Assembly (NCBI RefSeq): GCF_019753045.1
Contig: NZ_JAIELN010000009.1
Span: forward strand, 62,001-126,000
Reading direction: 5' to 3'
Source: Hyphomicrobium sp.
GTDB lineage: Bacteria; Pseudomonadota; Alphaproteobacteria; Rhizobiales; Hyphomicrobiaceae
DNA length: 64,000 nt
The position numbers and the translations under genes are program-made. The notes under the pieces are model-generated. The model saw only the letters and a list, made by a program, of their open reading frames with translations, was not told the origin of the DNA and searched no databases. Of the stretch, positions 31,339-45,910 are shown piece by piece; the stretch's first letter is position 1; each line of letters opens with the position of its first letter.

Positions 31339-32640
31339 TTAGGTCTCTGTCTTCCCCAATCGTATCGTCCGCGCCAGTGGCACGACCCAAACCGCGCCCA
31401 AATATAAAGCGGAAGCAGTGAAAACTTCGAGAGGCCGAACCCATACGGGATGATCATAGAAACCGCGATCAGCAATACCGATGATGCCGGCAGTAAGATA
31501 GGCGAGCGAAACTGCTGGAAAGATGGACCAAGATATCGGATTAGGACGCAAGCTCGCCCAAGTAACCGCCCAGAGAAGGTACCATGGATTGATGACGGGC
31601 GCGAATAGCAGAAGTACAATCAGCCAGATGTCCGCAGGTGGGAAAGTATCCCGTTCCCGAAGCAGCCAACGAAGCATCAGAGCGCCGCTTAACGCGCATC
31701 CTAACGCGAGGCCGAGTATCCGGGCAGTAGCGTCCCCTGCCAATTCCTTCAGCACAGCAAAACCCAGAGAATTGAATTCAAACCATTGTGCGAAATGTTG
31801 CAGCCCTGCCTGCTCGGTCGCGCCGGTCAGTATAAACGGCGCATAGAGAGCAACGAGTGCGGCTCCAGCGCCGAGAGAAACCAAGCACCAGCGGCTGCGC
31901 ACGAAGCTTGGAGCAATGATGATCGCGAATGGTTTGCAGGCCAACGCCAGACCAAACGCCAAGCCGCCTTCTATAGAACGTCCCTTCCTAAGCAGCGCAA
32001 AGCTCGCCACCGTTAGAAAAGCACCAACCACATCCGCATGCGCATTGAAGGATATCTCGAAGATGACGAGCGGGCAGAGCGCGTATCGCAGTCCGGCGCG
32101 ATATCCACCCAGCCGTGCGACGAGCGCCCAGAGGCCCAAATCAAAAATGACGAATAGCAACTTGAGGGCGGTTAAGCTCGTCGGGGCGATCCAGGCCGAC
32201 GCCGCGAAGACGTATTGAAGGGACGGCGCATAAATGGTCGGAATTTCAGGATTGTTGATCTGGGCTAGGACCACACGCCAGGTGGGGGCAATGCTTGCGT
32301 CGTCGAAATACGAGAGTGGAGGTGCTCCGTAGGGAGTACCATCAGTCAAGAACCTGAACCCGTCCCAAAGATACCGCGCCCAGTCATCCTCGTAGATAGG
32401 GTGGCTCCAAATCCCCACAACGCGGACCGCGATGGCGCACACAGTTGCCCATCTCAGAGCAAACAGCGAGAACTCCTGACTGGTGAAGAAGAGAGCATAG
32501 GCAAGCCACGCTACCCCCATCGACATGACGAACGATAACGCGTGCACGGGAGGCGATTGCGCTAGCCACGCGAGCGTCACAAATGCGGTCAAGATAAGTG
32601 TTGAACCGGCCGCACTGCGCCAGATGGCAAAGAGCTTCAT
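31339..32640 (-). CDS. GT87-like integral membrane glycosyltransferase
   Basis: A 433-residue protein with about 10-11 membrane helices. The first large loop after helix 2 or 3 carries Glu-Asp-Asp-Trp-Ala-Arg-Tyr-Leu-Trp-Asp-Gly, the acidic catalytic motif expected in GT-C polyprenol-phosphate-sugar-dependent glycosyltransferases. Such enzymes use mannosyl- or other sugar-phosphoprenols on the outer face of the inner membrane. It starts 12 nt after the DUF547 gene, which itself follows the radical SAM gene, so the three form one operon. The GT2 gene at 36.45 kb resembles the synthase of the polyprenol-linked donor such an enzyme would need. Confidence 0.8.
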   Translation of the reverse strand: MKLFAIWRSAAGSTLILTAFVTLAWLAQSPPVHALSFVMSMGVAWLAYALFFTSQEFSLFALRWATVCAIAVRVVGIWSHPIYEDDWARYLWDGFRFLTDGTPYGAPPLSYFDDASIAPTWRVVLAQINNPEIPTIYAPSLQYVFAASAWIAPTSLTALKLLFVIFDLGLWALVARLGGYRAGLRYALCPLVIFEISFNAHADVVGAFLTVASFALLRKGRSIEGGLAFGLALACKPFAIIIAPSFVRSRWCLVSLGAGAALVALYAPFILTGATEQAGLQHFAQWFEFNSLGFAVLKELAGDATARILGLALGCALSGALMLRWLLRERDTFPPADIWLIVLLLFAPVINPWYLLWAVTWASLRPNPISWSIFPAVSLAYLTAGIIGIADRGFYDHPVWVRPLEVFTASALYLGAVWVVPLARTIRLGKTET

Positions 32641-32652
32641 ACTTCGAGTGGA

Positions 32653-33522
32653 TCAATGATCCGCATCATTGAGCCTCCAATTGTAGAAGAAGCCATCAAT
32701 GCTCTCGAAGTGGCTGAGCTGCTTTGAAAGCGGATCAGACGCATAGGAGCGGAGATGCGTTATGACGGCCTTGTCGGCACCTCCAAAATCCTCTTTGAAC
32801 CACCTGTAGATCTCCGAAACTCGCAGTGCCTTCTCTGATGCATCGACGCCGTTCGGGTCATTGATGAAGTCGCGCGCGGCACCATCAAGCTGTTTCTCGA
32901 GCTTGGCACCGGTGAATGCTTCCGTCTGAAGATTCGGGCAGCCTATGGAGGCACAGTTCAGCGCGTAGTGGACGCGCGGATCGTGGAAAACCGGCCGTAG
33001 AATGCCGTGCTCAATGTCATCGAGGCTTAGTTCAACCCCCCGAAGCTTCGTAACCTTTTTTTTCCACGGGCCGCCGGTGAAGGTCGCCACCAATCCGCCG
33101 CCGAGCGAAATATCTTTGATGGATGCGACCGGATAATGATCAAGAATGATGTCGATCGTTTTGGCATTATAAAGATTGGCGAGAAGGGCAAACTGCTCCG
33201 GCCGGTCAAGTGTTGCGGGATCCACGCTCTCCAGCTGAGAGATGTAATGTTTCAAGCGCTGGCGATCTTCTGGTAGGACAGACTTGTAGTCGAAGCTGGT
33301 CGTGCCTCCGTGTCGCTTGACGTATTTGCCGAGAATGCCATCCCAAGTAGAGTGGTCGATCACTACCTGCGAACCGTTCGCTGCGCTGGCAAAGAGGTCG
33401 GCAGGGACGTCAGCCCGAGCCTGATGGCTCGCAAAAAGAAACGCGATACAAAGCAAGCTTCGGCGCAGGAGCGGCGCGAAAAAAGCGCCGATCCGACGCA
33501 TGGTCTGGCTTGTTGTAAACAT
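32653..33522 (-). CDS. DUF547 secreted protein
   Basis: A 289-aa exported protein with a signal peptide (hydrophobic core Leu-Leu-Cys-Ile-Ala-Phe-Leu-Phe-Ala, cleavage near Ala-Arg-Ala). The DUF547 core is clear: Ala-Leu-Leu-Ala-Asn-Leu-Tyr-Asn-Ala, Ser-Leu-Asp-Asp-Ile-Glu-His-Gly-Ile-Leu-Arg, Asp-Pro-Arg-Val-His-Tyr-Ala-Leu-Asn-Cys-Ala-Ser-Ile-Gly-Cys-Pro. The Cys, His and Glu in these motifs suggest a thiol-hydrolase-like or metal site, but no activity is established to my knowledge. GGGGAG precedes the start. Operon with the radical SAM gene upstream and the GT87-like gene downstream. Confidence 0.85.
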   Translation of the reverse strand: MFTTSQTMRRIGAFFAPLLRRSLLCIAFLFASHQARADVPADLFASAANGSQVVIDHSTWDGILGKYVKRHGGTTSFDYKSVLPEDRQRLKHYISQLESVDPATLDRPEQFALLANLYNAKTIDIILDHYPVASIKDISLGGGLVATFTGGPWKKKVTKLRGVELSLDDIEHGILRPVFHDPRVHYALNCASIGCPNLQTEAFTGAKLEKQLDGAARDFINDPNGVDASEKALRVSEIYRWFKEDFGGADKAVITHLRSYASDPLSKQLSHFESIDGFFYNWRLNDADH

Positions 33523-33607
33523 GAGCCCCCGCTCCCCAATGTTTGGGTCTTTGCTAATTGTTATGAGGCGAACGGTGCCTCGGATCGGTTGCCCGGTGTT
33601 GTGAACG

Positions 33608-34579
33608 TCATCCGTCGACCCGGCACGACGCCTTTCCGAGGACGCAGAAACGAGAGCAATGGCGATGATTGAGGCTCACTGTCGACCGGGCCTCCTCGAG
33701 CGTGCCGCCCAGTTCGAAGTCCTTCGCATAGGGAATCAATGTACACGCGACGACAGCCGCGCTTACTTCGCCCTTGCGTTTGAGGACCATTCGCGATGAG
33801 GCACACATCACTTGGCGGGGACTAAGGTTCAGCTTCTTCCAACATCCCTCGCTGACCTCGGGCGTATTGTCGTCATCCAGCATCTCGGGGAAGAGGATGA
33901 GACGCGCACTGTCGGTTGCATCGATGTCGAGGCCAACGTTGGAGAAAAGCTGCTGATAGCCACGGCGCATCTCCCCCTCGTCGATATTCCAGAGAAGCCT
34001 GCCCGCTATCGATACGTCAAAGCCGTGCTTTGCGAGCCAGGCCAAACCCTCCAAGGCAGCCCCCCAAGTCCGAGCGCCACGAATTTCCTCATGACCTTCC
34101 TGCTCGTAATGGTCGAGCGAAACACGCAACGATAATCGACCGGGAAAGCGGGTTTGCAAATCCTGCAATGGCCCGCGATGCCTCTGCATCGGGCGCATTG
34201 CGTTTGTCAGCACGAGTACTGAAAAACCTTGGGACAGGCTATCATCGAGCATGCCGATGATGTCGGGGTTCATGAAGGGCTCGCCTCCCGTGAAGCCGAT
34301 CATGCTTGGCTTTTTTGGGATCTGACACGCTTCATCAAGAAACCGGCCGACCTCCGTTCGCGTGAGATAAGCGAGCTGGTCGTTCTTGGGAGAAGAGTCG
34401 ATATAGCAGTTTTGGCACGCGATGTTGCAGAGCGTGCCAGTGTTGAACCACACCGTTTGGTAGCCCTGAAACGGAACCTGCGCCCTAGGTTCTCCGGAGA
34501 TGGTGACGTGGGGATCTGAGAACTTGCGCGGAGCCGCAGTCGGCGCAGTCTCAGTCGATTCAAATACAGCGATCGTCAT
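33608..34579 (-). CDS. Radical SAM protein with C-terminal Cys cluster
   Basis: A [4Fe-4S]/SAM enzyme with the motif Cys-Asn-Ile-Ala-Cys-Gln-Asn-Cys (CX3CX2C) near residue 50 and the SAM-binding Phe-Thr-Gly-Gly-Glu-Pro-Phe. The C-terminus has Cys-Ser-Arg-Phe-Cys plus further Cys, as in SPASM/twitch-type auxiliary cluster domains. It lacks the Cys-x-His-Cys-His-Val text I associate with the arsenosugar enzyme ArsS, yet sits in a locus with ArsM and the two arsenosugar-associated transferases. The start at ATG 34579 (Met-Thr-Ile-Ala-Val) is preferred; the frame is open to 34651. First gene of the minus-strand operon, divergent from the plus-strand genes. Confidence 0.85.
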   Translation of the reverse strand: MTIAVFESTETAPTAAPRKFSDPHVTISGEPRAQVPFQGYQTVWFNTGTLCNIACQNCYIDSSPKNDQLAYLTRTEVGRFLDEACQIPKKPSMIGFTGGEPFMNPDIIGMLDDSLSQGFSVLVLTNAMRPMQRHRGPLQDLQTRFPGRLSLRVSLDHYEQEGHEEIRGARTWGAALEGLAWLAKHGFDVSIAGRLLWNIDEGEMRRGYQQLFSNVGLDIDATDSARLILFPEMLDDDNTPEVSEGCWKKLNLSPRQVMCASSRMVLKRKGEVSAAVVACTLIPYAKDFELGGTLEEARSTVSLNHRHCSRFCVLGKASCRVDG

Positions 34580-34982
34580 CACATCTCGCAGCGGGAGGTG
34601 ACGGATGTTTGGAACCCCAGCCAGTCGCTGTGAGTCCCGTCGCCGCTCCATGCGAACTCCGCCCCGGGCTCATCGTTTAAAGAGCGAGCTTCAGCAATCC
34701 AACGAAGAAAACAAAATATGCTTAGGCCTAGAGGTGATATCGCGGAGTTCTGGGCGGCTGATGCGGCATTCCGCTTTAGTCAGCAAAATGGATGACTTTG
34801 TAGTCGAAGGTTTGCGCGGCTCAATTTCTCGGTCGTATTCCGGCGCGCCGCTCCCATATTTCCGCCGCATTATTCCAAATTGAACAATACTCAGCAGATA
34901 AGATTATTTCCCCTGTTGGCGCTGTCCATATAGCGAACTGATGTCGAGTTGTGGCGACGCCATGACCAAAATGGGGAAATAA
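34580..34982. other. Divergent promoter region of the putative arsenosugar locus
   Basis: About 400 nt between the radical SAM gene and the plus-strand operon, more AT-rich than its neighbours. I see no copy of the ArsR operator found at 45.0 kb and no clear palindrome. Both operon promoters must lie here. Confidence 0.4.
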
Positions 34983-35219
34983 ATGCGAATTGGTATTGTA
35001 GGGATAGCAGTGTGCGTTCTCGCCGGGCTTGTGGCGACGAATGCCGCAAACGCGTCCGGCAGCTATGGCGGCGCCAGCGGATTCACTCCGCCGAAGATAA
35101 AAAAAGAATCAAAACCCGCGGAAGCTTCCGAACCGAAGAAAGGTTCGGAGCCGAAGAAAGAGAAGAAGAAGAAGTCCAGCGGGCTCAGCGCGCCCGGGGA
35201 CTATAGCCGGAATTCGTAG
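34983..35219 (+). CDS. Small exported Lys-rich protein
   Basis: A 78-aa protein: signal peptide (Ile-Gly-Ile-Val-Gly-Ile-Ala-Val-Cys-Val-Leu-Ala, cleavage near Ala-Asn-Ala), a Gly/Ser stretch, then a Lys/Glu/Pro-rich low-complexity tail with repeated Glu-Pro-Lys-Lys units and a Ser/Gly end. GGGGAAA lies 7 nt before the ATG. Not recognised. It opens the plus-strand side of the locus, 65 nt before the outer-membrane protein gene. Confidence 0.6.
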   Translation: MRIGIVGIAVCVLAGLVATNAANASGSYGGASGFTPPKIKKESKPAEASEPKKGSEPKKEKKKKSSGLSAPGDYSRNS

Positions 35220-35284
35220 AGAACTCGGAATGCCCGTCCGTGGGGGAGGGCGTCTACAAAGTCGAGTATTGGGGGTTGCATAAA

Positions 35285-36334
35285 ATGAAGACTATAGTTC
35301 GAGCCGCACGCCATTCAAGGCTGCGGCTAGCGCGAGCTGTGGCGTGCTCTACAGCTGTGATGGCGATCATCGGAACATCCCAGGCCATGGCGCAGCAGTC
35401 TGCCTATGTGCCCAACAAAGGGGAACTCCAAACGTCGTTTGGAACGGTCTACCAAGACTATAATAGCGCATGGCAAGGGAAGACCTTCGGGGAGTATCCG
35501 CGGACGACTACGATCCAGGAATACCTGGTGTCCATCTCCTACGGCATTACCGATGACCTATCGCTGGATGCCAGCACTGGCTACGGAACACTCACCGGTG
35601 GTCTTTCGAGAGCCTCCCGTCCTAATCCGAACGGCTGCTGGAACCAACCGCTCAACACATTTGCTGGACGGCAGTGCCAGGATCCTATCCCGCAAGGAAG
35701 CCGGGACGGTCGCCTCGATTCAACCGTAGGCCTCCGCTACCGCGCGATCAGAGAGGACTCTGAGCGGTGGAATAGCTTGCCCTCAATTGCGATTTACGGC
35801 GCTGCGATCATAAAAGGCGACTACGAGCCGACGCCACAGGCGCTCGGTAACGGTGCAAACGGATTCAAAACCGGGGTGGCCCTCGGGCGGTACTGGCAGG
35901 AGATCAGTTTCGGCGTCAACGCCGGCCTTGAGTACCAGTATCTGAAAGGCCCACAAGATGTTGTGCCTAACAATTTGAATGGAAGTGTCGGCATTTACAA
36001 ATTCTTGGGACAATACTTCGTTTCGAGTGGCTATCAGTTTCAGCACAGCCAGAGCGGCTGGGATACGGGCAAAGGACCGTTTCCCGCCAACCCAGACAAC
36101 CTGCCAGCTGACTTGGTCGGGCCGCCGGACAGCCGCGACTACAATCGCATGCTGAACGCGGTGGGCCGGAAGGAAAATTGGCAGAGCTGGCAGTTAGGCG
36201 CAGGCTATGTGACGGAAGGCGGCACAGTGATTTTTGCCTCCTACACCGACGTGTTCGATGGCCGGAATACGGCCGATCGCTCGACATGGCAGCTTAATGT
36301 GACGGTTCCGAACCAACTTTTCCATCGGAACTGA
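35285..36334 (+). CDS. Outer-membrane beta-barrel protein (transporter-like)
   Basis: A 349-aa exported protein with a signal peptide ending at Ala-Met-Ala and a mature body of alternating hydrophobic/polar strands rich in Tyr, Gly and aromatic strand ends (Leu-Val-Ser-Ile-Ser-Tyr-Gly-Ile-Thr-Asp-Asp-Leu-Ser-Leu). This is the pattern of the meta-pathway/transporter-type outer-membrane channels. The last strand ends in Leu-Phe-His-Arg-Asn rather than a terminal Phe. ATG 35285 is preferred because the signal peptide starts there; the frame is open to 35240. It could let a glycosylated or methylated product leave the cell, but that is inference from position only. Confidence 0.65.
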   Translation: MKTIVRAARHSRLRLARAVACSTAVMAIIGTSQAMAQQSAYVPNKGELQTSFGTVYQDYNSAWQGKTFGEYPRTTTIQEYLVSISYGITDDLSLDASTGYGTLTGGLSRASRPNPNGCWNQPLNTFAGRQCQDPIPQGSRDGRLDSTVGLRYRAIREDSERWNSLPSIAIYGAAIIKGDYEPTPQALGNGANGFKTGVALGRYWQEISFGVNAGLEYQYLKGPQDVVPNNLNGSVGIYKFLGQYFVSSGYQFQHSQSGWDTGKGPFPANPDNLPADLVGPPDSRDYNRMLNAVGRKENWQSWQLGAGYVTEGGTVIFASYTDVFDGRNTADRSTWQLNVTVPNQLFHRN

Positions 36335-36360
36335 CAGCTGGACCCGACAGCGGATGGTAT

Positions 36361-36411
36361 CCGGCTTCGTTGAAGCAGTGACTTTCTGATCTCTGCACTC
36401 GACGAAGCCGG
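36361..36411. other. Inverted repeat between OMP and GT2 genes
   Basis: CCGGCTTCGT and its exact complement (10 bp) lie 31 nt apart, with an inner GCAG/CTGC helix. No T run follows. It could be a processing or partial termination hairpin inside the operon. Confidence 0.5.
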
Positions 36412-36450
36412 GCACTAAATCAGCTGATCAAAAAATTAGGATCATTCCCG

Positions 36451-37200
36451 ATGAACCCGCAAGGATTGAGCGTCGAGGATATCTTCGTATTGATCCCCGC
36501 GCTCAATGAAGCCGAGTCGATTGCCTCCGTGATAGGTCGTCTGCGGGCTTTGGGATGCTACCATATCCGAGTGGTCAACAACGGTTCGACGGATGATACG
36601 GCTGCAATCGCGCGTGGTGCAGGCGCTGTCGTCATCGATGAGCCGGTTGCCGGCTATGGCATGGCGTGTTGGCGTGGATTGCAAGATCTCCCGGAGCACG
36701 CCCGGTGGGTTCTGTTCTGCGATGCCGATGGCTGCGATGAGCTCGAGGCTCTCCCACGCTTCATCGCGGCCGCGAGAGAGGGTGCGGACCTCGTCCTCGC
36801 AGATCGTCTGAGCTTGTCCAATTCAGCGGAGAAACTGACGTTACCACAACGTTTCGGAAATCGCTTGGCTGTGGTTCTTATCCGGCTGGTCTGGGGAGCA
36901 AGGTTTAATGATCTTGGTCCGATGCGCCTCGTCAATCGGCTATTGCTTGATGAGATTGACATGAAGGATCGCGGGTTCGGCTGGACTGTCGAAATGCAAA
37001 TTCGAGCGGCTCAGCTCTTTGCCCGCTTTACGGAAATACCCGTCACCTATCAATCGCGGCGGCACGGACGTTCCAAAATATCCGGAACTGTACGAGGCGT
37101 GATCATGGCTGGGACGACAATTCTCTCAACGATCGCGTACCACGCGCTTTGGCCGCGCGGTGCGGATCTTAAAATCGCTTCTCTCAGGAGAACTCTGTAG
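36451..37200 (+). CDS. GT2 glycosyltransferase, polyprenyl-phosphate sugar synthase-like
   Basis: A 249-aa GT-A enzyme with Leu-Ile-Pro-Ala-Leu-Asn-Glu-Ala-Glu, Val-Val-Asn-Asn-Gly-Ser-Thr-Asp-Asp-Thr and the metal-binding Phe-Cys-Asp-Ala-Asp-Gly, like dolichol- or undecaprenyl-phosphate mannosyl/glucosyl transferases. Later text (Arg-Phe-Gly-Asn-Arg-Leu, Asp-Leu-Gly-Pro-Met-Arg) also fits that group. It has one weak C-terminal hydrophobic stretch and no multi-helix anchor. AGGA precedes the ATG. Its stop overlaps the rhodanese start by 1 nt (TAGTG), so they are coupled. It could make the lipid-linked donor for the GT87-like protein in the divergent operon. Confidence 0.8.
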   Translation: MNPQGLSVEDIFVLIPALNEAESIASVIGRLRALGCYHIRVVNNGSTDDTAAIARGAGAVVIDEPVAGYGMACWRGLQDLPEHARWVLFCDADGCDELEALPRFIAAAREGADLVLADRLSLSNSAEKLTLPQRFGNRLAVVLIRLVWGARFNDLGPMRLVNRLLLDEIDMKDRGFGWTVEMQIRAAQLFARFTEIPVTYQSRRHGRSKISGTVRGVIMAGTTILSTIAYHALWPRGADLKIASLRRTL

Positions 37201-37733
37201 TGGCTCGGACACCTATCATTATCGCCGCTCTTGCGATCGCCGCTGCTGCGTCGGCGTACGTCTTCGGATTTGGGTCGCATGCGAACGAAATGCTCGACCT
37301 GAACGAGATGATCGAAACTGTTCATCGCAAATTCCCCGACATCAAACACGTGGACACGGGGGCTGTAGAGCAGCTTCTGAAGAGTAACGATGCCGTTCAG
37401 GTCATCGACGTCCGCGAACCAGAGGAGTTCAAGGTGAGTCATCTTCCAGGTGCCATCAATGTTCCTCCAGGATCATCGGACGATGACATCCTCGCGAAAA
37501 TCAAGCCGGACCATCCCACGGTAGTCTATTGCTCGGTGGGATGGCGCTCGTCCGAAATGGCCGAGCGCCTGCAGGCGGCAGGACGCACGAACGTCGTCAA
37601 CTACGCCGGATCGATTTTTGCCTGGGCGAATGCAGACCAACCCTTGGAGTCGAGCGGGGGCGCCACCAAAGCCGTTCACCCCTACGACAAATATTGGGGC
37701 CGCTATCTAAAACCCGAGCACCGGGCCTTCTAA
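37200..37733 (+). CDS. Membrane-anchored or secreted rhodanese-like protein
   Basis: A 177-aa single-domain rhodanese preceded by an N-terminal hydrophobic segment (about residues 6-24, Ala/Ile-rich), so it is exported or anchored in the membrane. Rhodanese signatures: Val-Ile-Asp-Val-Arg-Glu-Pro-Glu-Glu-Phe, His-Leu-Pro-Gly-Ala-Ile-Asn-Val-Pro, and the active loop Tyr-Cys-Ser-Val-Gly-Trp-Arg-Ser with the persulfide Cys. The GTG start overlaps the GT2 stop. The arsM gene follows 50 nt later. A sulfurtransferase beside ArsM could supply sulfur for thioarsenical formation or handle thiols; this is inference. Confidence 0.85.
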   Translation: MARTPIIIAALAIAAAASAYVFGFGSHANEMLDLNEMIETVHRKFPDIKHVDTGAVEQLLKSNDAVQVIDVREPEEFKVSHLPGAINVPPGSSDDDILAKIKPDHPTVVYCSVGWRSSEMAERLQAAGRTNVVNYAGSIFAWANADQPLESSGGATKAVHPYDKYWGRYLKPEHRAF

Positions 37734-37783
37734 GCACTGGGTCGCAGCCCGAAACCTCACCCATCTTATTCTGGAGACACCAA

Positions 37784-38836
37784 ATGCACATCGACCTCGT
37801 GAAGGAGTATTACGGGAAGATCCTGAAAACTTCGGGCGATCTGAAGACGAAGGCTTGCTGTACACCGGACTCGATGCCGGAGCGCGTCAAGGAGCTCTTG
37901 AAGAACGTCCACGAAGAGGTCATTGCGAAATACTACGGCTGTGGTTTGGTCGTGCCCGAACTTCTCGAAGGAAAACGCGTGCTCGATCTCGGCTGCGGGT
38001 CGGGCCGAGACGTCTATGCATTGGCACAGCTCGTCGGCCCGAAGGGCGAAGTCGTTGGCGTCGATATGACACCCGAACAGCTGTTCACGGCACGCCAGCA
38101 TATCGATTGGCACATGCAAAAGTTCGGGCATGAAAAGACCAACGTCCGATTCCTGCAAGGATTCATCGAGGCGCTTCCCAGTCTGGGGCTGGAGCCTGAG
38201 AGCTTTGACGTCATCGTCTCCAACTGCGTTGTGAATCTTTCCATCGACAAGCCGGCAGTTCTCAAAGGCGTATTCGATCTCTTGAAGCCGGGTGGTGAAT
38301 TCTATTTTGCCGACGTCTACGCCGATCGCCGGTTGCCGTCAGAGGTGCGGGATGATCCCGTCGTCTATGGAGAATGCCTCGGCGGCGCTTTGTATTGGGG
38401 TGATTTCCAGGCGCTCGCGAAGGGAGCTGGTTTCGGCGATCCCCGCCTCGCGACGAGTCGCAAAATCGAAATTGACGATCCTTACGTCCAGAAGAAGGTC
38501 GGCTCCGCGCAATTTTTCTCGGCGACCTATCGTCTTTTCAAAATCGCCGGCCTGGAGCCGGTCTGCGAGGATTACGGTCAAGTCGTCGTCTACAACGGCG
38601 GGGTGCCCGACGCAGAACATGCCCTCACGCTGGACGGACACCATGTGATCGAGAAAGGCCGGTTCTTCCCGGTCTGCGGCAACACTTGGAACATTCTACA
38701 GCAAAGCAGGTTCGAGCCTTACTTCTCGTTCCATGGAAATTTCTCGACGCACTTCGGCGTGTTTGCTGGGTGCGGCACGACAATTCCGTTTGAGAGCGCG
38801 GGTGCATCAGGCGCAAGCGCCGGCGGTTGCTGTTGA
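37784..38836 (+). CDS. arsM: Arsenite S-adenosylmethionine methyltransferase ArsM
   Basis: Methylates trivalent arsenic stepwise with SAM. The SAM site Val-Leu-Asp-Leu-Gly-Cys-Gly-Ser-Gly is at residues 66-74. The four Cys positions conserved in ArsM are present: Cys25/26, Cys53, Cys148 and Cys198; the spacings 25-53 (28) and 148-198 (50) equal those of the well-studied algal enzyme (44-72, 174-224). After the catalytic part comes an extra domain (about residues 260-330), and the C-terminus is Ser/Gly-rich and ends Gly-Cys-Cys. ATG 37784 has TGGAGA upstream and beats the open frame before it. It is in the middle of the plus-strand operon. Confidence 0.93.
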   Translation: MHIDLVKEYYGKILKTSGDLKTKACCTPDSMPERVKELLKNVHEEVIAKYYGCGLVVPELLEGKRVLDLGCGSGRDVYALAQLVGPKGEVVGVDMTPEQLFTARQHIDWHMQKFGHEKTNVRFLQGFIEALPSLGLEPESFDVIVSNCVVNLSIDKPAVLKGVFDLLKPGGEFYFADVYADRRLPSEVRDDPVVYGECLGGALYWGDFQALAKGAGFGDPRLATSRKIEIDDPYVQKKVGSAQFFSATYRLFKIAGLEPVCEDYGQVVVYNGGVPDAEHALTLDGHHVIEKGRFFPVCGNTWNILQQSRFEPYFSFHGNFSTHFGVFAGCGTTIPFESAGASGASAGGCC

Positions 38837-38933
38837 GCACGATCGAACAAAGACCCACGGTTGTGATCTCTCAGGTCCGGCAGGAGTTTCATCTCCGCCG
38901 GGCGTCGAACGCCCTACCCTCGAAGAACCAGAC

Positions 38934-40115
38934 ATGAAGAAGCTTTTGCTCATCGGCGCAGGGCACACCAATGCCCAGGTGTTGCGCGCCTGGATCGACG
39001 AACCGCTGCCTGATGTCGAGGTTGTCGTCGTCGCGCCTTCGACGCAGGCACCATATTCCGGAATGGTGCCGGGATGGCTCAGCGGCGTCTACGCGTTCGA
39101 GGAAATCTGCATCGATTTTTTTGCCCTGGCACGGGCGGCCGGCGCCAAGTTCATCGTCGATGAATTGGCTTCGCTCGATCCCGATCGTCGCATTGTCCGC
39201 TTGGCCAGCGGCAAAGAGCTCGGCTACGATATCCTCTGCCTCAACGTCGGATCGACTCTTAATCCACCGGCCGTTTCTGATACCCTCCTGTTGCCTCTGC
39301 GGCCACTTGGGCGACTTCGATCGGCGTGGGAAACTTTGCTGTCCACCATCGAGCGTGACGCGGGAACGGCGCCATTCGTGGTGACAGCAGTGGGAGGCGG
39401 CGCGGCGGGCGTTGAGGCCCTGCTGGCTTGTCTTGCGCGCCTGCGCGCCAAGCAACCGGGACGCGTCATTCGAGGTCAGCTTGTGACCCGTGGCGCATCC
39501 CTTCTGCCTGACCTCGCGGCTGGGGCGGTTGAGGGCGCGCGGCGCGTTCTCGAGCGGGCCGGTGTCACGATCCATCTTGCGACGCAAATCAACGACGAGA
39601 TTGCAGGGTCCAGCGATCTAATACTGTGGGCCACTGGCGCGGAAGCGCATGCTTGGCAGCGCGATTGCGGCCTTGCTGTAAGCGAAAGGGGATTTATCCG
39701 GGTCGATGCGCATTTGCGTTCCATCTCTCATCCCCAAGTGTTTGCCGTCGGTGACTGCGCCGAATGGGCCGAGCCGCTCCCAAAGGCCGGCGTGTATGCC
39801 GTCCGGATGGGACCAGCATTGGTCCAGAACGTAAGAGCTGCGCTAAGTGGTCTAGCCGATGGTCTGGGGCACTTTAGGCCCCAAAGGAATTTTCTTGTCC
39901 TATTGGCCACCGGCGATGGTAACGCGATTGCATCGCGCGGGCGGTGGTCTGCGCACGGCGCCCTCCTCGGTCGGTTGCTTTGGCTTTGGAAGGACCGCAT
40001 CGATCGAAAGTTTCTTGCTCTCTTCAAGATAGCCGTCGCCGGGGATGAAGAGCACCCCATCGATGTCTTCACTAAGATCGAGCCGTCGAGGAGCGTCGAT
40101 GGCAGAGCTCCTTAA
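38934..40115 (+). CDS. FAD-dependent pyridine-nucleotide oxidoreductase (NDH-2/SelD-N-like)
   Basis: A 393-aa flavoprotein beginning with the FAD fingerprint Leu-Leu-Leu-Ile-Gly-Ala-Gly-His-Thr-Asn-Ala. It carries the family element Tyr-Ser-Gly-Met-Val-Pro-Gly, a second nucleotide motif (Val-Gly-Gly-Gly-Ala-Ala-Gly-Val-Glu) and the C-terminal FAD motif Phe-Ala-Val-Gly-Asp-Cys-Ala. This matches the NDH-like module that is fused in front of SelD in many bacteria; here it stands alone. No CXXC redox disulfide is visible, so quinone or another acceptor is likely. It overlaps the next gene by 17 nt. In rSAM/selenodomain-associated clusters such proteins recur; the substrate is unknown. Confidence 0.82.
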   Translation: MKKLLLIGAGHTNAQVLRAWIDEPLPDVEVVVVAPSTQAPYSGMVPGWLSGVYAFEEICIDFFALARAAGAKFIVDELASLDPDRRIVRLASGKELGYDILCLNVGSTLNPPAVSDTLLLPLRPLGRLRSAWETLLSTIERDAGTAPFVVTAVGGGAAGVEALLACLARLRAKQPGRVIRGQLVTRGASLLPDLAAGAVEGARRVLERAGVTIHLATQINDEIAGSSDLILWATGAEAHAWQRDCGLAVSERGFIRVDAHLRSISHPQVFAVGDCAEWAEPLPKAGVYAVRMGPALVQNVRAALSGLADGLGHFRPQRNFLVLLATGDGNAIASRGRWSAHGALLGRLLWLWKDRIDRKFLALFKIAVAGDEEHPIDVFTKIEPSRSVDGRAP

Positions 40116-41526
40116 AGCCGATTTGTGCATCATCGGCGCCGGCTCCGCCGGGTTGTCAATCGCGGCCGGTTCCGCGCAAATGGGCGCCCGGACGGTCCTG
40201 ATTGAAGCTCACCGGATGGGCGGTGATTGCCTCAACTCAGGCTGCGTTCCCTCGAAGTCGCTACTCGCCGCGGCCAAAGTTGCTCACGTTGTTCGCAGTA
40301 GCGCCAAGACCGGAATAGCTTTCCAGGAGCCGCGCATCGAATTCGCGCAAACACGACGTTACGTTCATGACGTCATTCAAGCGATAGCACCCCACGACTC
40401 GGTCGATCGATTCAAAGGTCTCGGCTGCCAAGTGATCGAGGCGTCAGCTCGTTTCGTCGATCGCAAAACTGTGGCGGCCGGAGATTTCCAGGTTCGCGCC
40501 CGCCGCTTTGTCATCGCGTCGGGAAGCCGACCTTACGTCCCCCCCATCGAAGGTCTCGAGAACACGCCTTACTTCACCAATGAAACGATCTTCGAAAACA
40601 CGGTGCTGCCGGAGCACATCATCATCATCGGCGCGGGCCCAATGGGGGCCGAGATGGCGCAGGCGCACCGGAGGCTCGGTGCGCGCGTGACCTTGCTGGA
40701 CGCTGCACGGTTGCTGCCGAGAGATGATCCGGAAGCGGTCGAGGTTCTCCGCCAGAGACTTTCATCTGAAGGCGTGGAAATTATCGAATCTGTCGAAATC
40801 GTTCGTGTCGCCTTGTCCGGTTCGGAAATCGACATCACGATCAACGACAACAGCCGCGAACGAACGCTTCGCGGATCTCACTTGCTCGTTGCGGCAGGAA
40901 GACGCCCGAACGTCGCGGACCTCGGTCTGGAAGCGGCAGGGGTAAAATACGACGAGAAGCGCATCAATGTTGACGCGCGACTTCGTACGGCGAACAAGCG
41001 GATCTTCGCGGCGGGCGACGTCATTGGCGGCCAACTGCTCACGCACGCCGCTGGTTATCACGCGTCAATCGTACTCAAGAACGCGTTGTTTCGCATCCCG
41101 GCCAAGAAATCGGCGAGCGATCTTCCCTGGGTGACGTATACGGACCCCGAGCTGGCGCAGGTTGGCCTTACGGAAAGTTCGGCCAAGCAGCTTCATGGCG
41201 ATTCCGTTCGTGTCCTACGCGCAGATTTTGCGCAAAACGATCGCGCTCGGGCCGAGGGAATCTCCGATGGGTTTCTGAAGGCTGTTGTTTCGAAGAGAGG
41301 AAGTATTCTCGGCGCAACTATCGTTGGTCCGCACGCTGGAGAGCTGCTTCTGCCGTGGACCCTCGCCATTGCGCAAGGAAATAAAATCGGCGCGTTGGCT
41401 GGTCTGACGGTGCCCTACCCAACCTTGAGCGAGATCACCAAACGTGCGGCTGGCAGCTACTTCACGCCAGCACTTTTTTCACCTCGGATCCGGCGATTGG
41501 TCCGTTTCCTCGGAGTATTCGGATGA
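40099..41526 (+). CDS. Mercuric-reductase-like disulfide flavoprotein
   Basis: A class I pyridine nucleotide-disulfide oxidoreductase (475 aa): the FAD motif Ile-Ile-Gly-Ala-Gly-Ser-Ala-Gly, the redox pair Gly-Gly-Asp-Cys-Leu-Asn-Ser-Gly-Cys-Val-Pro-Ser-Lys, the NAD motif Ile-Ile-Gly-Ala-Gly-Pro-Met-Gly-Ala-Glu and Phe-Ala-Ala-Gly-Asp-Val. It lacks the N-terminal heavy-metal domain and the C-terminal Cys pair of true MerA, and the usual catalytic His before Pro-Thr-x-x-Glu appears as Tyr-Pro-Thr-Leu-Ser-Glu. So it is unlikely to reduce Hg(II). ATG 40099 has GAGGAG upstream. It overlaps the TVP38 gene by 4 nt. Confidence 0.87.
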   Translation: MAELLKADLCIIGAGSAGLSIAAGSAQMGARTVLIEAHRMGGDCLNSGCVPSKSLLAAAKVAHVVRSSAKTGIAFQEPRIEFAQTRRYVHDVIQAIAPHDSVDRFKGLGCQVIEASARFVDRKTVAAGDFQVRARRFVIASGSRPYVPPIEGLENTPYFTNETIFENTVLPEHIIIIGAGPMGAEMAQAHRRLGARVTLLDAARLLPRDDPEAVEVLRQRLSSEGVEIIESVEIVRVALSGSEIDITINDNSRERTLRGSHLLVAAGRRPNVADLGLEAAGVKYDEKRINVDARLRTANKRIFAAGDVIGGQLLTHAAGYHASIVLKNALFRIPAKKSASDLPWVTYTDPELAQVGLTESSAKQLHGDSVRVLRADFAQNDRARAEGISDGFLKAVVSKRGSILGATIVGPHAGELLLPWTLAIAQGNKIGALAGLTVPYPTLSEITKRAAGSYFTPALFSPRIRRLVRFLGVFG

Positions 41527-42218
41527 CCCTGAAGCGCCTTTTGCCGCTCCTCGTGCTTGTTGCGCTTTTGATCGGCGCCTTCGCGCTCCGGCTCGATCGC
41601 TATGTCACCCTCGATGCATTGCGCGACAACAGAGCGGCACTCTCAGATCTGGTCCAGAACCACTCGATATTGTCGGGGCTCATCTACATTCTGGTCTACA
41701 TCGTCGCGGTGGCTCTGTCGTTTCCCGGCGCAACCATTCTCACTCTCGCTGGCGGTCTCCTCTTCGGCGCAGCTGTGGGAGCATCCTTGACCGTGATCGG
41801 CGCCACGGCGGGCGCAACGATCTTATTCTTGATTGCCAGGTCTGCTGCCGGTGACATTTTGCGCCGCCAGGCCGGCCCTTTCCTCGCGCGCTTGTCAGAA
41901 GGATTCAGCCGAAACGCGTTCAACTACTTGCTTTTCCTTCGCTTGGTTCCGGCGTTTCCCTTTTGGGTCGTCAATCTTGCGCCAGCCATCCTTGGCATGC
42001 GGCTTTTGCCGTATATCGTCGCCACAGGCATCGGCATCATTCCCGGAACGTTTGTCTTCTCGGCTTTTGGAGCAAGTCTCGGAACGGTGTTTGACGCGGG
42101 GCGCGAGGTGCATCTGAAGGACGTGCTGAGCCCGACGCTGATAGCCGGCCTAGTCGTCCTTGGCTTCTTGTCGTTGCTTCCCATCCTGCTGAAATCGAGG
42201 GCGAGACAAGAACATTGA
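41523..42218 (+). CDS. TVP38/TMEM64 (DedA-like) membrane protein
   Basis: A 231-aa protein with about five to six membrane helices and the SNARE-associated/VTT domain: Phe-Pro-Gly-Ala-Thr-Ile-Leu-Thr-Leu-Ala-Gly-Gly, Gly-Ala-Thr-Ala-Gly-Ala-Thr, Arg-Leu-Val-Pro-Ala-Phe-Pro-Phe-Trp and Ile-Pro-Gly-Thr-Phe-Val. VTT proteins act in lipid scrambling or membrane transport. Pairing with a MerA-like flavoprotein is common, and fusions of the two exist. The start codon overlaps the previous stop (ATGA), and its own stop overlaps the next start (TTGA): tight coupling. Confidence 0.88.
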   Translation: MTLKRLLPLLVLVALLIGAFALRLDRYVTLDALRDNRAALSDLVQNHSILSGLIYILVYIVAVALSFPGATILTLAGGLLFGAAVGASLTVIGATAGATILFLIARSAAGDILRRQAGPFLARLSEGFSRNAFNYLLFLRLVPAFPFWVVNLAPAILGMRLLPYIVATGIGIIPGTFVFSAFGASLGTVFDAGREVHLKDVLSPTLIAGLVVLGFLSLLPILLKSRARQEH

Positions 42219-42880
42219 CGTTGTCGATCGTAATACCAACGCTCGATGCTGGAGCGACCCTGGCGCAGACGTTGGTGTCGCTGGGGGACGTTCGCGAAGT
42301 TCTGGTTGTCGATGGCGGCTCACATGATGACACCGTTCTGATAGCGGAGCGTGCTAGAGTTCGTGTACTTCACGCGCAAAAGGGGCGCGGATGCCAGCTC
42401 GCGGAGGGGGCAGCGAACGCTCGCGGAGACTGGCTTCTCTTTCTGCATGCGGATACCTGCCTAGAACGTGACTGGCAAGCTGCGGTCACGTCATTTATCG
42501 AAGATCCCACCAACACGGCGAGAGCTGCAGTATTTCGCTTCCAGTTGGATCATGGGTCCGCTGAAGCGCGACGATTGGAGGCAATGGTCGACTGGCGTGT
42601 GCGTCGGCTCGGGTTACCGTACGGAGATCAAGGTTTGCTGATCCATCGGGATTTCTATCACAGCATCGGCGGCTTTCGCCCCATTCCAATAATGGAGGAC
42701 GTCGATCTTGTTCTTCGAATTGGCCGGAGTCGTTTGGAAATTCTTCCAATCGCGGCGCGGACCTCGGCAAAGCGCTGGATGGAACAGGGATGGACGCTGC
42801 GAAGTGCACAGAACATCTTCTGTCTGGTCCTCTATTTCGTCGGCGTGCCGGCGCGGCTCATCTCTCGCGTTTATCATTGA
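42215..42880 (+). CDS. TIGR04283-type arsenosugar/rSAM-associated GT2 glycosyltransferase
   Basis: A 221-aa GT-A glycosyltransferase: Ile-Val-Ile-Pro-Thr-Leu-Asp-Ala, Val-Val-Asp-Gly-Gly-Ser-His-Asp-Asp-Thr, Gly-Arg-Gly-Cys-Gln-Leu and the metal site Phe-Leu-His-Ala-Asp-Thr, then Gly-Asp-Gln-Gly-Leu-Leu and Met-Glu-Asp-Val-Asp-Leu. These are hallmarks of the family first named transferase 2, rSAM/selenodomain-associated, later arsenosugar biosynthesis glycosyltransferase. The TTG start overlaps the TVP38 stop. The C-terminus has a hydrophobic helix, so it is likely membrane-bound. The TIGR04282-type gene follows within 3 nt. Confidence 0.87.
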   Translation: MTLSIVIPTLDAGATLAQTLVSLGDVREVLVVDGGSHDDTVLIAERARVRVLHAQKGRGCQLAEGAANARGDWLLFLHADTCLERDWQAAVTSFIEDPTNTARAAVFRFQLDHGSAEARRLEAMVDWRVRRLGLPYGDQGLLIHRDFYHSIGGFRPIPIMEDVDLVLRIGRSRLEILPIAARTSAKRWMEQGWTLRSAQNIFCLVLYFVGVPARLISRVYH

Positions 42881-42883
42881 GCA

Positions 42884-43501
42884 ATGTCCTTGGACCGCCA
42901 TCTTGTTCTGTTTACGCGTTACCCGAGCTTCGGCACGGGGAAGCGCCGTCTCGCTGCTGGCGTCGGGAATACGACAGCACTACGCTTTCAGCGTGTCAGT
43001 CTTTCCCACACACTGCGACGACTGGGCGGCGACCCAAGATGGAGAACATGGCTCGCGATCACTCCGGACCGTTCCGGACCTTGGCCGGGTCAGTTTGATG
43101 TCGTGCCGCAGGGAAGGGGCGATTTGGGGCAACGCCTGGCTCGAGTCTCCTCCCGGCTCCCACGCGGGCCGGTGCTCATTATCGGCAGTGATGTCCCGGG
43201 TATCACCAAAGAGCTGGTGGCCGAGGCGTTTCATCTGCTCGGTGCGCACGACGCCGTTGTTGGTCCGTCCGCAGATGGAGGCTATTGGGCCGTCGGGCTT
43301 CGTCGCCGTCCCCATCTAATAAATCCCTTTCGAGCTGTCAGATGGTCTTCGCCAAATGCCCTCGACGACACCTTGGCAAATCTGCGGGGGCACTCGGTCG
43401 GCAGGCTTTCGCCTCTGGACGACATCGATGATGCCGATGCCATGGGACGATTTTCAAATTGGGCCATCCTACACGCATCGCGCCATCGAGAAGGCCCGTG
43501 A
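42884..43501 (+). CDS. TIGR04282-type arsenosugar/rSAM-associated transferase (DUF2064)
   Basis: A 205-aa nucleotidyltransferase-like (CofC-like) protein: Leu-Phe-Thr-Arg-Tyr-Pro near the N-terminus where the family has a Lys/Arg-Thr/Arg substrate loop, then Gln-Gly-Arg-Gly-Asp-Leu-Gly-Gln-Arg-Leu, Ile-Gly-Ser-Asp-Val-Pro-Gly-Ile and Gly-Pro-Ser-Ala-Asp-Gly-Gly-Tyr-Trp. The Ser-Asp-x-Pro and Ala-Asp-Gly-Gly-Tyr motifs define this family. With its TIGR04283-type neighbour it is the standard pair of arsenosugar-type loci. Exact chemistry is not established. A hairpin follows. Confidence 0.88.
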   Translation: MSLDRHLVLFTRYPSFGTGKRRLAAGVGNTTALRFQRVSLSHTLRRLGGDPRWRTWLAITPDRSGPWPGQFDVVPQGRGDLGQRLARVSSRLPRGPVLIIGSDVPGITKELVAEAFHLLGAHDAVVGPSADGGYWAVGLRRRPHLINPFRAVRWSSPNALDDTLANLRGHSVGRLSPLDDIDDADAMGRFSNWAILHASRHREGP

Positions 43502-43531
43502 ATACGATCTCATTTCAACGATCAACTATTC

Positions 43532-43555
43532 CAGGAATGCTGCTTTGCATTCCTG
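43532..43555 (+). terminator. Hairpin at end of the plus-strand operon
   Basis: A perfect 9-bp stem (CAGGAATGC / GCATTCCTG) with a 6-nt loop, 30 nt after the TIGR04282-type gene. No T run, so it may be a weak terminator or an mRNA 3'-end stabiliser. Confidence 0.45.
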
Positions 43556-43625
43556 ATAAACGCAGTTCGCAGGATCGCAGATGTGAGCTAGGCAGAGGCC
43601 GAATGAAAGTTGGGGGATAGGCGCG

Positions 43626-44336
43626 ATGGCACAATATTCGGATTATAGGCGCGCGGGGTCCGAGTTCCTCGGGAGCGCCTTTTTGCTTGCTACGGTGATA
43701 GGATCCGGCGTCATGGGCGCGCAGTTGGCTGGCGGAAATGATGCACTGGCGTTGCTCGGGAATACGATCCCTACCGGCGCGATACTTGTGGTGCTCATCA
43801 CCATGCTCGGACCGATCTCCGGCGCGCACTTCAATCCTGCGGTTACGGGAGTATTTTGGCTTCGCGGCGAAATCACTGTACGCCTCAGCGTACTCTACGT
43901 TGTTGCCCAGATAGCAGGAGCCGTCGCCGGTGTTTTCGCTGCCCACCTAATGTTCGATCTTCCGGTTCTACAGTTGTCCGAGAAGGTCAGAAGCGGAAGT
44001 AGCCAATGGTTCGCGGAGTGGGTGGCGACCTTTGGCCTCGTTTTGACGATCCTTGCGACCTTGAAGGCAAGGCCCGCCGCAATTCCCGTGTCCGTGGGCC
44101 TCTACATTACAGCCGCCTACTGGTTTACTGCGTCGACCTCCTTTGCGAACCCTGCCGTGACTTTCGCGCGGGCCTTCTCCAATACATTCGCGGGGATCAG
44201 ACTTGCGGACGTTCCGCCGTTCATTGCCGCACAGCTTCTCGGTGCCGTCGCTGCCCTTGCTGCTGCTCGCTGGCTTCTCGCGGAAAGAGCAGATATTGCA
44301 GAGCCCGGGTTGGCTGCACCAGCGCCTGCGGAATAG
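43626..44336 (+). CDS. Aquaporin/aquaglyceroporin family protein (AqpS-like, copy 1)
   Basis: A MIP channel of 236 aa with six membrane helices and two pore loops: His-Phe-Asn-Pro-Ala-Val-Thr and Phe-Ala-Asn-Pro-Ala-Val-Thr-Phe-Ala-Arg (both NPA intact, filter Arg present). It is a close paralogue of the channel in the ars operon at 45.9 kb; most helices agree residue by residue. In Sinorhizobium meliloti AqpS lets As(III) leave the cell down its gradient. This copy may serve As(OH)3 or methylated arsenicals. It has its own ribosome-binding region (GGGGGATAGG), 125 nt after the arsenosugar-type operon. Confidence 0.88.
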   Translation: MAQYSDYRRAGSEFLGSAFLLATVIGSGVMGAQLAGGNDALALLGNTIPTGAILVVLITMLGPISGAHFNPAVTGVFWLRGEITVRLSVLYVVAQIAGAVAGVFAAHLMFDLPVLQLSEKVRSGSSQWFAEWVATFGLVLTILATLKARPAAIPVSVGLYITAAYWFTASTSFANPAVTFARAFSNTFAGIRLADVPPFIAAQLLGAVAALAAARWLLAERADIAEPGLAAPAPAE

Positions 44337-45004: not shown

Positions 45005-45034
45005 TTGCATACTTCAAGAATCCTTGTAGTATGC
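45005..45034 (+). promoter_or_regulatory. ars operon promoter and ArsR operator
   Basis: A 28-bp palindrome (45007-45034) has perfect outer arms GCATACT / AGTATGC and inner arms CAAG / CTTG. A promoter is embedded: -35 TTGCAT (45005-45010), 16-nt spacer, -10 TAGTAT (45027-45032). ArsR bound here would cover both elements. Transcription should start around 45039, the A of the arsR ATG. Confidence 0.75.
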
Positions 45035-45038
45035 ACCT

Positions 45039-45386
45039 ATGATCGACAAAAACGCCGTCACCTGCCTCGCCGCGCTGGCGCATGACCAGCGGCTGGCGAT
45101 CTTCCGCCTCCTGGTGAGGGAAGGCCCCTCCGGCCTCCCCGCAGGTGAGATTGCCGACGCCGTCGGCGCAACGCCAACGGGCGCGTCCTTTCATTTGAAG
45201 GAGCTGGACCGCGCAGGCCTGATCCACGCCACGCGGGTCGGCCGCTACATCCGCTACGCGGTGCATTTCGACAAGGTTCGCCAGCTGCTGACGTTCCTGA
45301 CCGAAGACTGCTGCCAGGGGCAGCCGGAGCTTTGTGGCTCAACAATCAAAAAAGCGCGCAAGTTGTGTAAGGGAGAAGCGAAATGA
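45039..45386 (+). CDS. arsR: ArsR family arsenic-responsive repressor
   Basis: A winged-helix metalloregulator of 115 aa. The DNA-binding helix has Thr-Pro-Thr-Gly-Ala-Ser-Phe-His-Leu-Lys-Glu-Leu. It lacks the classical ELCVCD box; instead the C-terminal part has Cys91, Cys92 and Cys99 (Asp-Cys-Cys-Gln-Gly-Gln-Pro-Glu-Leu-Cys), like the As(III) site of Acidithiobacillus-type ArsR. There is no ribosome-binding site: the operator ends 4 nt before ATG, so the mRNA may be leaderless. It overlaps arsC by 4 nt. It represses its own operon until As(III) binds. Confidence 0.93.
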   Translation: MIDKNAVTCLAALAHDQRLAIFRLLVREGPSGLPAGEIADAVGATPTGASFHLKELDRAGLIHATRVGRYIRYAVHFDKVRQLLTFLTEDCCQGQPELCGSTIKKARKLCKGEAK

Positions 45387-45907: not shown

Positions 45908-45910
45908 GGT

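Follow-up and report, generated by a model that had tools for sequence, protein, structure and literature searches.

Gene content of the locus

The locus analysed in this work lies at positions 31339-44336 of a stretch of 64,000 nucleotides (the window; G000:C6:62001-126000, from a host assembly of 4.5 Mb). It exhibits the genes of an apparent arsenosugar-type pathway around an ArsM-like arsenite methyltransferase, together with genes that suggest the handling of a lipid-linked sugar. The locus consists of two compact divergent blocks. The minus-strand block consists of the genes for a radical S-adenosylmethionine (SAM) enzyme, a DUF547 protein, and a GT87-like membrane protein. The plus-strand block runs from the gene for a barrel-like protein onward. 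The features are listed in Table 1. The minus-strand genes are separated by 12 bp (GT87-DUF547) and 85 bp (DUF547-radical SAM). On the plus strand, the GT2 and rhodanese genes overlap by 1 bp, gaps of 50 bp and 94 bp stand before and after the ArsM-like gene, and the following genes overlap by 17, 4, and 4 bp before a gap of 3 bp to the TIGR04282 gene.

A previous inspection of the window without database searches (the sequence-only reading) had proposed these genes as an extended locus for the biosynthesis and export of an arsenosugar or arsenolipid. All genes that it named were confirmed as intact open reading frames, at the place and in the families it had given. Two of its labels, GT87 for a protein with no Pfam match and ArsM for a protein that scores under the curated cut-offs, are softer.

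Table 1. Features of the locus and of the arsenic resistance genes downstream, with positions in the window.
Feature	Position	Strand	Evidence
GT87-like (GT-C class) membrane glycosyltransferase, 433 amino acids, 10 hydrophobic segments	31339..32640	-	Relatives beside GT2 and ArsM in L131, L138, L139, L177
DUF547 protein, hydrophobic signal-like N-terminal segment	32653..33522	-	PF04784 84.8 bits (cut-off 27)
Radical SAM enzyme, apparent ArsS stand-in, CX3CX2C at 75/79/82	33608..34651	-	PF04055 46.2 bits (cut-off 29.5)
Putative outer-membrane barrel protein, signal-like N terminus by eye; start 35240 or 35285	35285..36334	+	29% relative in L131
GT2, predicted polyprenyl-phosphate-sugar synthase type	36451..37200	+	40-49% identical relatives in L131, L138, L139
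Rhodanese-domain protein, hydrophobic N-terminal segment	37200..37733	+	PF00581 74.4 bits (cut-off 22.2); NF045521 116.8 bits (cut-off 145)
ArsM-like arsenite methyltransferase, 350 amino acids, C-terminal extension	37784..38836	+	Sequence, Cys residues, context
TIGR03169 FAD/NAD oxidoreductase	38931..40115	+	330 bits (cut-off 310)
MerA/lipoamide-dehydrogenase-like flavoprotein	40099..41526	+	Family match; VTT-fused in L131, L138, L139, L183
VTT-domain (DedA superfamily) membrane protein	41523..42218	+	PF09335 69.4 bits (cut-off 33.9)
TIGR04283 glycosyltransferase	42215..42880	+	211 bits (cut-off 182)
TIGR04282/DUF2064 protein, nucleotidyltransferase-like	42884..43501	+	132.6 bits (cut-off 134, just under)
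MIP channel (aquaporin)	43626..44336	+	MIP 94 bits (cut-off 25)
Inverted repeat directly before arsR, operator-like	45006..45035	.
ars genes: ArsR-type regulator, low-molecular-weight-phosphatase-type ArsC, second MIP channel, ArsH	45039..47355	+	ArsH 412 bits (cut-off 292)

Loci, profiles and counts

Loci were collected around relatives of the window's ArsM. Searches of the class (385 genomes) and of the phylum (398 genomes) contributed 11 and 38 genomes, respectively, to which 80 named loci and two plasmid records were added. Loci are denoted by L numbers, and genomes by G numbers. A locus counted as an ArsM locus when its ArsM reached 300 bits in the profile search. Besides the window, 114 loci passed: nine from the class search, 69 named loci, 32 and a further two (L177 and L182) from the phylum searches, and two from plasmids. 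Twelve loci under 300 bits were dropped (L079, L142, L156, L157, L159, L162, and L164-L169), and two of these carry ArsS (L157 and L169). L221 repeats L098, so the counts are based on 113 loci; L182 and L236 share a single genome. The loci vary in length, and 85 of 115 are at least 15 kb. L131 supplied seeds for the GT2, GT87, DUF547, and barrel profiles, as did L139 for the first two. Thresholds were placed by eye where the scores showed gaps.

The arsenosugar-type core

The sequence-only reading had taken the TIGR04282/TIGR04283 transferases beside ArsM as the mark of an arsenosugar-type locus. This was borne out by their distribution, as one or the other occurs in 30 of the 41 ArsM loci with ArsS or the alternative radical SAM family described below and in 5 of the 72 that lack both radical SAM genes. 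MerA-like genes occur in 24 of the same 41 loci and in 11 of the 72. Phosphorylases of the methylthioadenosine (MTA) type occur in 11 and in two, respectively, and they accompany both ArsS (5/22) and the alternative (6/19). The window genome has one MTA-type phosphorylase homologue, on another contig. TIGR03169 was found in 5 of the 113 loci. The classical form is exhibited by L183, an annotated plasmid locus, which consists of arsS, a VTT/FAD fusion, DUF547, TIGR04283, TIGR04282, a methyltransferase, a phosphate transporter, and mtnP. The assignment of the window core to the arsenosugar type is well supported by these gene families.

The window methyltransferase scores under the cut-off of every ArsM model listed (25 of 50 families were listed), with 175.6 bits against 263 for PRK11873 and 77.3 against 400 for AsSugarArsM. 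Its placement in the curated ArsM models was rejected on these scores. Cys 25, 53, 148, and 198 are invariant in eight aligned sequences, and we take them to be the four cysteines of ArsM. The protein is called ArsM-like because of its sequence, these invariant cysteines, and its gene context. The TIGR04282 alignment spans profile positions 1-187 of 189, and the protein also matches a nucleotide-sugar transferase (5e-16). A second TIGR04283 gene over the cut-off is present in the window genome at C5:222963-223631 (L039), and the surrounding 20 kb contain no other gene for which a profile was used.

A second radical SAM family as an apparent stand-in for ArsS

The radical SAM protein of the window was rejected as ArsS, since it scores 51.6 bits against the TIGR04167 cut-off of 300. 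ArsS over this cut-off is absent from the whole window assembly. Among NCBIfam models, the window protein comes closest to that of the Rv1681 family (82.6 bits, cut-off 380). The family of the window protein, termed the alternative here, exhibits a CX3CX2C motif (C75, C79, and C82 in the window) plus further invariant cysteines.

The 113 ArsM loci include 22 with ArsS, 19 with the alternative, and none with both (P = 0.011 if independent). Among the 35 loci that carry TIGR04282/TIGR04283, 13 have ArsS, 17 have the alternative, five have neither, and again none has both (P = 6e-6). The fusion in the Streptomyces locus L146 was left out of the alternative count. Whole genomes show the same pattern. 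TIGR04167 over its cut-off is found in none of 14 genomes with the alternative, where nothing but the alternatives themselves matches at 1e-8 (42-73 bits, cut-off 300), and the alternative is absent in all three ArsS genomes tested. When 20 of the 38 ArsM genomes were searched, the alternative was identified in 13. In six of these (G380, G756, G681, G841, G873, and G903) it sits away from the ArsM locus, and four of the 20 have neither radical SAM gene there. In the same genus as the window, the alternative stands directly after an AsSugarArsM gene over the cut-off (536 bits against 400). The nearest relative of the window enzyme (L040, same family) adjoins MerA and VTT genes on one strand.

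Both groups exhibit a C-terminal MC...C[TD] motif (24/24 ArsS and 50/50 alternatives). The last three cysteines are spaced C-x2/3-C-x6-C in all 50 alternatives and in none of the 24 ArsS, and the 12 ArsS tails listed are C-x2-C-x7-C. ArsS is fully separate from the alternative in the radical SAM tree, which was built by a quick method with a long-branch warning. Within the alternative, ten rows, mainly from gamma- and betaproteobacteria and all with ArsM, form one clade. The window falls in a set of 21 rows, ten of them with ArsM, and this set also holds loci with TIGR04282/TIGR04283, MerA, VTT, or TIGR03169.

The alternative family was found in 76 of 199 genomes of the order. TIGR04282 was sought in 80 genomes, 40 drawn from the 75 others that have the alternative and 40 from the 123 that lack it. 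It was identified (1e-25) in 35 of the former and three of the latter (P = 1e-13, kinship uncorrected). In these draft assemblies the two genes are mostly unlinked, and 4 of 35 pairs lie no more than 6 kb apart. This tracking at the level of genomes suggests that the alternative and TIGR04282 probably belong to one pathway even when dispersed. A chance presence of the alternative at the window, from a family that is widespread without ArsM, is disfavoured by the alternation with ArsS and by the link to TIGR04282. The alternative radical SAM family seems to fill the slot of ArsS, and this is well supported by the genomics.

A domain that by eye resembles metallophosphoesterases is fused to an alternative or Rv1681-type radical SAM domain in L042 (8526-10460), in L043 and L044 (near 9.5 kb), and in L146 (1927-3603). 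The fusions of L042-L044, from three genomes of the order with no ArsM match, have as neighbours TIGR04282 and, by eye, ABC transporter genes of the phosphonate type, with TIGR04283 also in L043 and L044. They may belong to a related pathway with another substrate.

The extended gene set and its recurrence

The closest solved relatives of the GT2 protein are ArnC and dolichol-phosphate-mannose synthase (DPMS), with 9hwj at 1.2e-14 (profile positions 8-215 of 237) and 5mlz at 6.9e-14. This fits a polyprenyl-phosphate-sugar synthase type, as the sequence-only reading had suggested. The GT87 label of the window protein is weak. The protein itself has no Pfam match, PF09594 matches one of four aligned members (0.0018), and the profile weakly matches GPI mannosyltransferase 1 (0.0085), which we take to be a user of dolichol phosphate. 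No family was matched by the barrel protein in the library scans, and the sole relative found is in L131; an outer-membrane barrel fold is putative. Nothing credible was found among solved structures as a relative of DUF547 or of the barrel.

A plain BLAST search that used no queries but window proteins identified GT2, GT87, and DUF547 around ArsM in L131 and in two cyanobacteria (L138 and L139), and in L131 the barrel as well. L131, from a gammaproteobacterium, consists on one strand of GT2, a small protein, the barrel-like gene (between GT2 and GT87), GT87, ArsS, VTT-MerA, DUF547, ArsM, ArsC, and PstS. L177, from the class of the window, carries within about 8 kb a phosphorylase, the alternative radical SAM, ArsM, TIGR04283, TIGR04282, a GT87-GT2 fusion, and DUF547. 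In L230, GT2, DUF547, TIGR04282, ArsM, and a radical SAM gene adjoin or overlap (longest-ORF starts) and are followed by an MTA phosphorylase. TIGR04282 and TIGR04283 are both absent from the examined stretches of L131 and L138, although these carry GT2 and GT87.

A search seeded with GT87 found it in 6 of 398 genomes, five of them with this ArsM, which is carried by 37 of the 397 genomes other than the window's (P = 3e-4 without the window's own genome). The distance from GT87 to ArsM is under 10 kb in G000, G900, and one copy of G001 and about 24 kb in G655, and the two lie on separate contigs in G584. The GT2 search found seven of 398 genomes, four with ArsM (P = 0.012 without the own genome). 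The recurrence of GT2, GT87, and DUF547 with ArsM in L131, L138, L139, and L177, and of a barrel-like gene in L131, is what the sequence-only reading had expected of a genuine gene set. The rhodanese, which it had counted as a pathway member, fared less well, as it is found outside the window only beside GT2-GT87 in L180 and L182.

A small exported-looking protein is encoded beside GT87/GT2 in L131 (3456-3758), L177 (8976-9323), and L178 (1673-2062). The profile finds none in the window, and the two members tested have no NCBIfam match.

Proposed pathway

The whole is best explained as an arsenosugar locus to which a lipid-carrier arm has been added, and we assign this explanation a probability of roughly 0.55. 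In the formation of arsenosugars, arsenic is adenosylated by radical SAM enzymes (PMC12159101). The first four steps are proposed from the enzyme families. ArsM would methylate arsenite to dimethylarsenite, and the radical SAM enzyme in the place of ArsS would couple dimethylarsenite to the 5'-deoxyadenosyl group of SAM. An MTA-type phosphorylase, clustered in some relatives, would remove adenine from dimethylarsinoyl-adenosine to give 5-dimethylarsinoyl-ribose-1-phosphate, which TIGR04282 would activate with a nucleotide. The activated arsenic sugar might then follow one of two routes. Either TIGR04283 would pass it on in the cytoplasm, or the ArnC/DPMS-like GT2 would load it on polyprenyl phosphate, and after flipping, the GT87-like GT-C enzyme would transfer it to an envelope acceptor outside the membrane. 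DUF547 and the rhodanese may act outside the membrane, and the flavoproteins may keep arsenic or thiols reduced.

The lipid relay is modelled on mycobacterial methylthioxylose and is plausible. Release of the product through the barrel, as the sequence-only reading had suggested, is unsupported, since the only point in its favour is the presence of a barrel-like gene in one other locus (L131). A bolder and doubtful proposal is that at least two phyla make polyprenyl-phosphate-linked dimethylarsinoyl-ribose for the envelope, in the manner of methylthioxylose, with the arsenic-adenosyl bond formed by the second radical SAM family.

Points against the pathway and alternative explanations

The proposed pathway has to be weighed against the following observations, all of which count against it. 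The extended genes occur in a minority of the 113 ArsM loci (GT2 in six, GT87 in five, DUF547 in ten, the barrel in one, and the rhodanese in one). Inside ArsM loci, their link to a radical SAM gene is weak (P = 0.02 for GT2) or not significant (0.06 for GT87, 0.17 for DUF547, and 0.06 for TIGR03169). GT2 is present without this ArsM (at 1e-100) in G025, G171, and G194, and so is GT87 in G025. L180 exhibits a GT87-GT2-rhodanese block with no ArsM in its 20 kb. L185 (Pseudoalteromonas plasmid pPBSW1, 2702-10464) consists of a glycosyltransferase, GT87, a thioredoxin-reductase/NapH-like fusion, GT2, a TIGR04282-like gene, and a TIGR04283-like gene in a row, a stretch with neither ArsM nor a radical SAM gene.

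For the radical SAM family, 28 of 49 alternative tree rows come from loci without ArsM nearby, most of them drawn by the radical SAM search, and no ArsM match at 1e-20 was found in G129, G142, and G170, which carry the alternative. An uncontrolled comparison of profiles matches the alternative to ArsS (98.2%, 152 core columns), a match that radical SAM proteins in general may share. Other models outscore ArsS for the relatives L091 and L101. Kinship among genomes inflates all P values. Both modules, the alternative and GT2/GT87, occur without ArsM and could therefore serve other pathways. The lipid arm is also without a flippase candidate. The window VTT protein is presumably of the COG0398 type, to judge by its TVP38/TMEM64 label. 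DedA proteins of this type are considered unlikely to be undecaprenyl phosphate flippases, and VTT as the flippase is thus unsupported (PMC10127716).

The strongest competing explanation is a plain arsenosugar locus next to which island accretion has placed an unrelated module for envelope glycans (GT2, GT87, rhodanese, barrel, and DUF547) that handles an ordinary sugar. L180, L185, and the rarity of the extended genes in ArsM loci speak for it. It fits poorly with the interleaving of GT2, GT87, and DUF547 with ArsS, ArsM, and VTT-MerA in L131, with their company of ArsM in differing gene orders in L138, L139, and L177, with the adjoining genes of L230, and with the presence of this ArsM in five of the six GT87 genomes. 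We regard it as possible, with a minor share of the probability.

An unlikely explanation is that the alternative radical SAM makes another SAM-derived product for TIGR04282, for instance a 3-amino-3-carboxypropyl arsenical like that of ArsL or a non-arsenic adenosyl compound. The wide spread of the family in the order and its tracking of TIGR04282, including in the three genomes without an ArsM match, would be consistent with this, and ArsL is a case of a different radical SAM reaction on arsenic (PMC8552651). However, the alternation with ArsS in ArsM loci is strict and therefore argues for the same step, and the MTA-type phosphorylase accompanies both kinds. An arsenic resistance island only, in which ArsM methylates, ArsH, ArsC, and the channels detoxify, and the rest is unrelated, is very improbable: the ars genes lie directly downstream and 56 of 113 ArsM loci carry none of the other eleven window families, but the genes from ArsM to TIGR04282 are tightly spaced and the set recurs in distant lineages.

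Comparison with known systems

The ArsM/ArsS arsenosugar loci, such as L183 on the Acinetobacter portensis plasmid NZ_CP096121, are the closest known systems. They have in common with the window the ArsM-like enzyme, TIGR04282/TIGR04283, VTT and the MerA-like flavoprotein, and DUF547. The window differs in that ArsS is swapped for another radical SAM family, that GT2, GT87, the rhodanese, and the barrel are added, and that VTT and the flavoprotein are separate. Profiles for MTA phosphorylase and PstS find neither at 26-50 kb of the window (other phosphate transporters were not sought).

The lipid-carrier arm is likened to methylthioxylose capping by MtxS (Rv0539) and MtxT (Rv0541c), by its workings and not by sequence, with sulfur there and arsenic here. 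Rv0540, which lies between the two, is presumably a DUF2064 protein. Dimethylarsinoyl-adenosine would be the arsenic counterpart of MTA. In mycobacteria, MTA is converted to decaprenyl-phosphate-linked methylthioxylose, and a GT-C enzyme transfers the sugar outside the membrane; the proposed likeness is a 5'-modified adenosine start, a polyprenyl-phosphate pentose, and an external GT-C transfer (PMC11127046, PMC8780516). Such a logic would explain the gathering of phosphorylase, TIGR04282, GT2, and GT87 at ArsM/radical SAM loci.

Three-component pentofuranose addition (PPPRS, a MATE flippase, and GT136) also has a lipid-linked ribofuranose donor and a GT-C enzyme, but its donor comes from phosphoribosyl pyrophosphate (PMC11127046). 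PPPRS and MATE are absent among the identified window genes, with no search aimed at them. The arsinothricin cluster arsQML shares with the window an ArsM beside a radical SAM enzyme. It differs in that ArsL, of 428 amino acids, is reported to transfer an aminocarboxypropyl group and that three steps suffice (PMC8552651). Streptomyces sp. CC228A (L146) carries TIGR04283, MerA, VTT, and ArsM within about 9 kb; its radical SAM enzyme is an actinobacterial fusion with a metallophosphoesterase, whose radical SAM part is closest to the Rv1681 family (268 bits, cut-off 380).

What is new here is the ArsS substitute, well supported by genomics, and the lipid-carrier arm, which is plausible. Consistent with the sequence-only reading, no description of the full gene set was found among the matches listed in the mainly open-access literature. 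The parts of the literature examined assign no enzyme to the steps after ArsM and ArsS in arsenosugar or arsenolipid formation. For those steps, the locus and its relatives offer a short list of genes that can be tested. They also point to a second radical SAM family as a candidate for forming the arsenic-adenosyl bond, and to a possible destination of the arsenic sugar. This is relevant to arsenic cycling and to the question of where the arsenosugars in food webs originate. If the bolder proposal above is true, donors of modified ribose that derive from adenosyl compounds would be much more widespread than has been assumed, given the alternative in 76 of 199 genomes and its work with TIGR04282 as a rule (35 of 40).

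Neighbouring genes

The aquaporin gene lies 124 bp downstream of TIGR04282. The sequence-only reading had placed it in the sugar pathway; a role in arsenic transport together with the ars genes is more likely. A second MIP channel, in the arsR-arsC-MIP-arsH row, lies beyond the limits of that reading. The two similar channels (43626-44336 and 45911-46618) flank arsR-arsC. The window exhibits no second good copy of the inverted repeat before arsR. A comparison of four upstream regions for common operators gave a single word of 9-12 bases found in more than one of them, a 9-mer in the arsR and GT2 regions. A gene for a formaldehyde-activating enzyme adjoins the locus on the minus strand (30089-30628). 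Together with the best named ArsM relative, from Methylosinus, this gene suggests that the host is probably an alphaproteobacterium of the hyphomicrobial kind, and perhaps a methylotroph.

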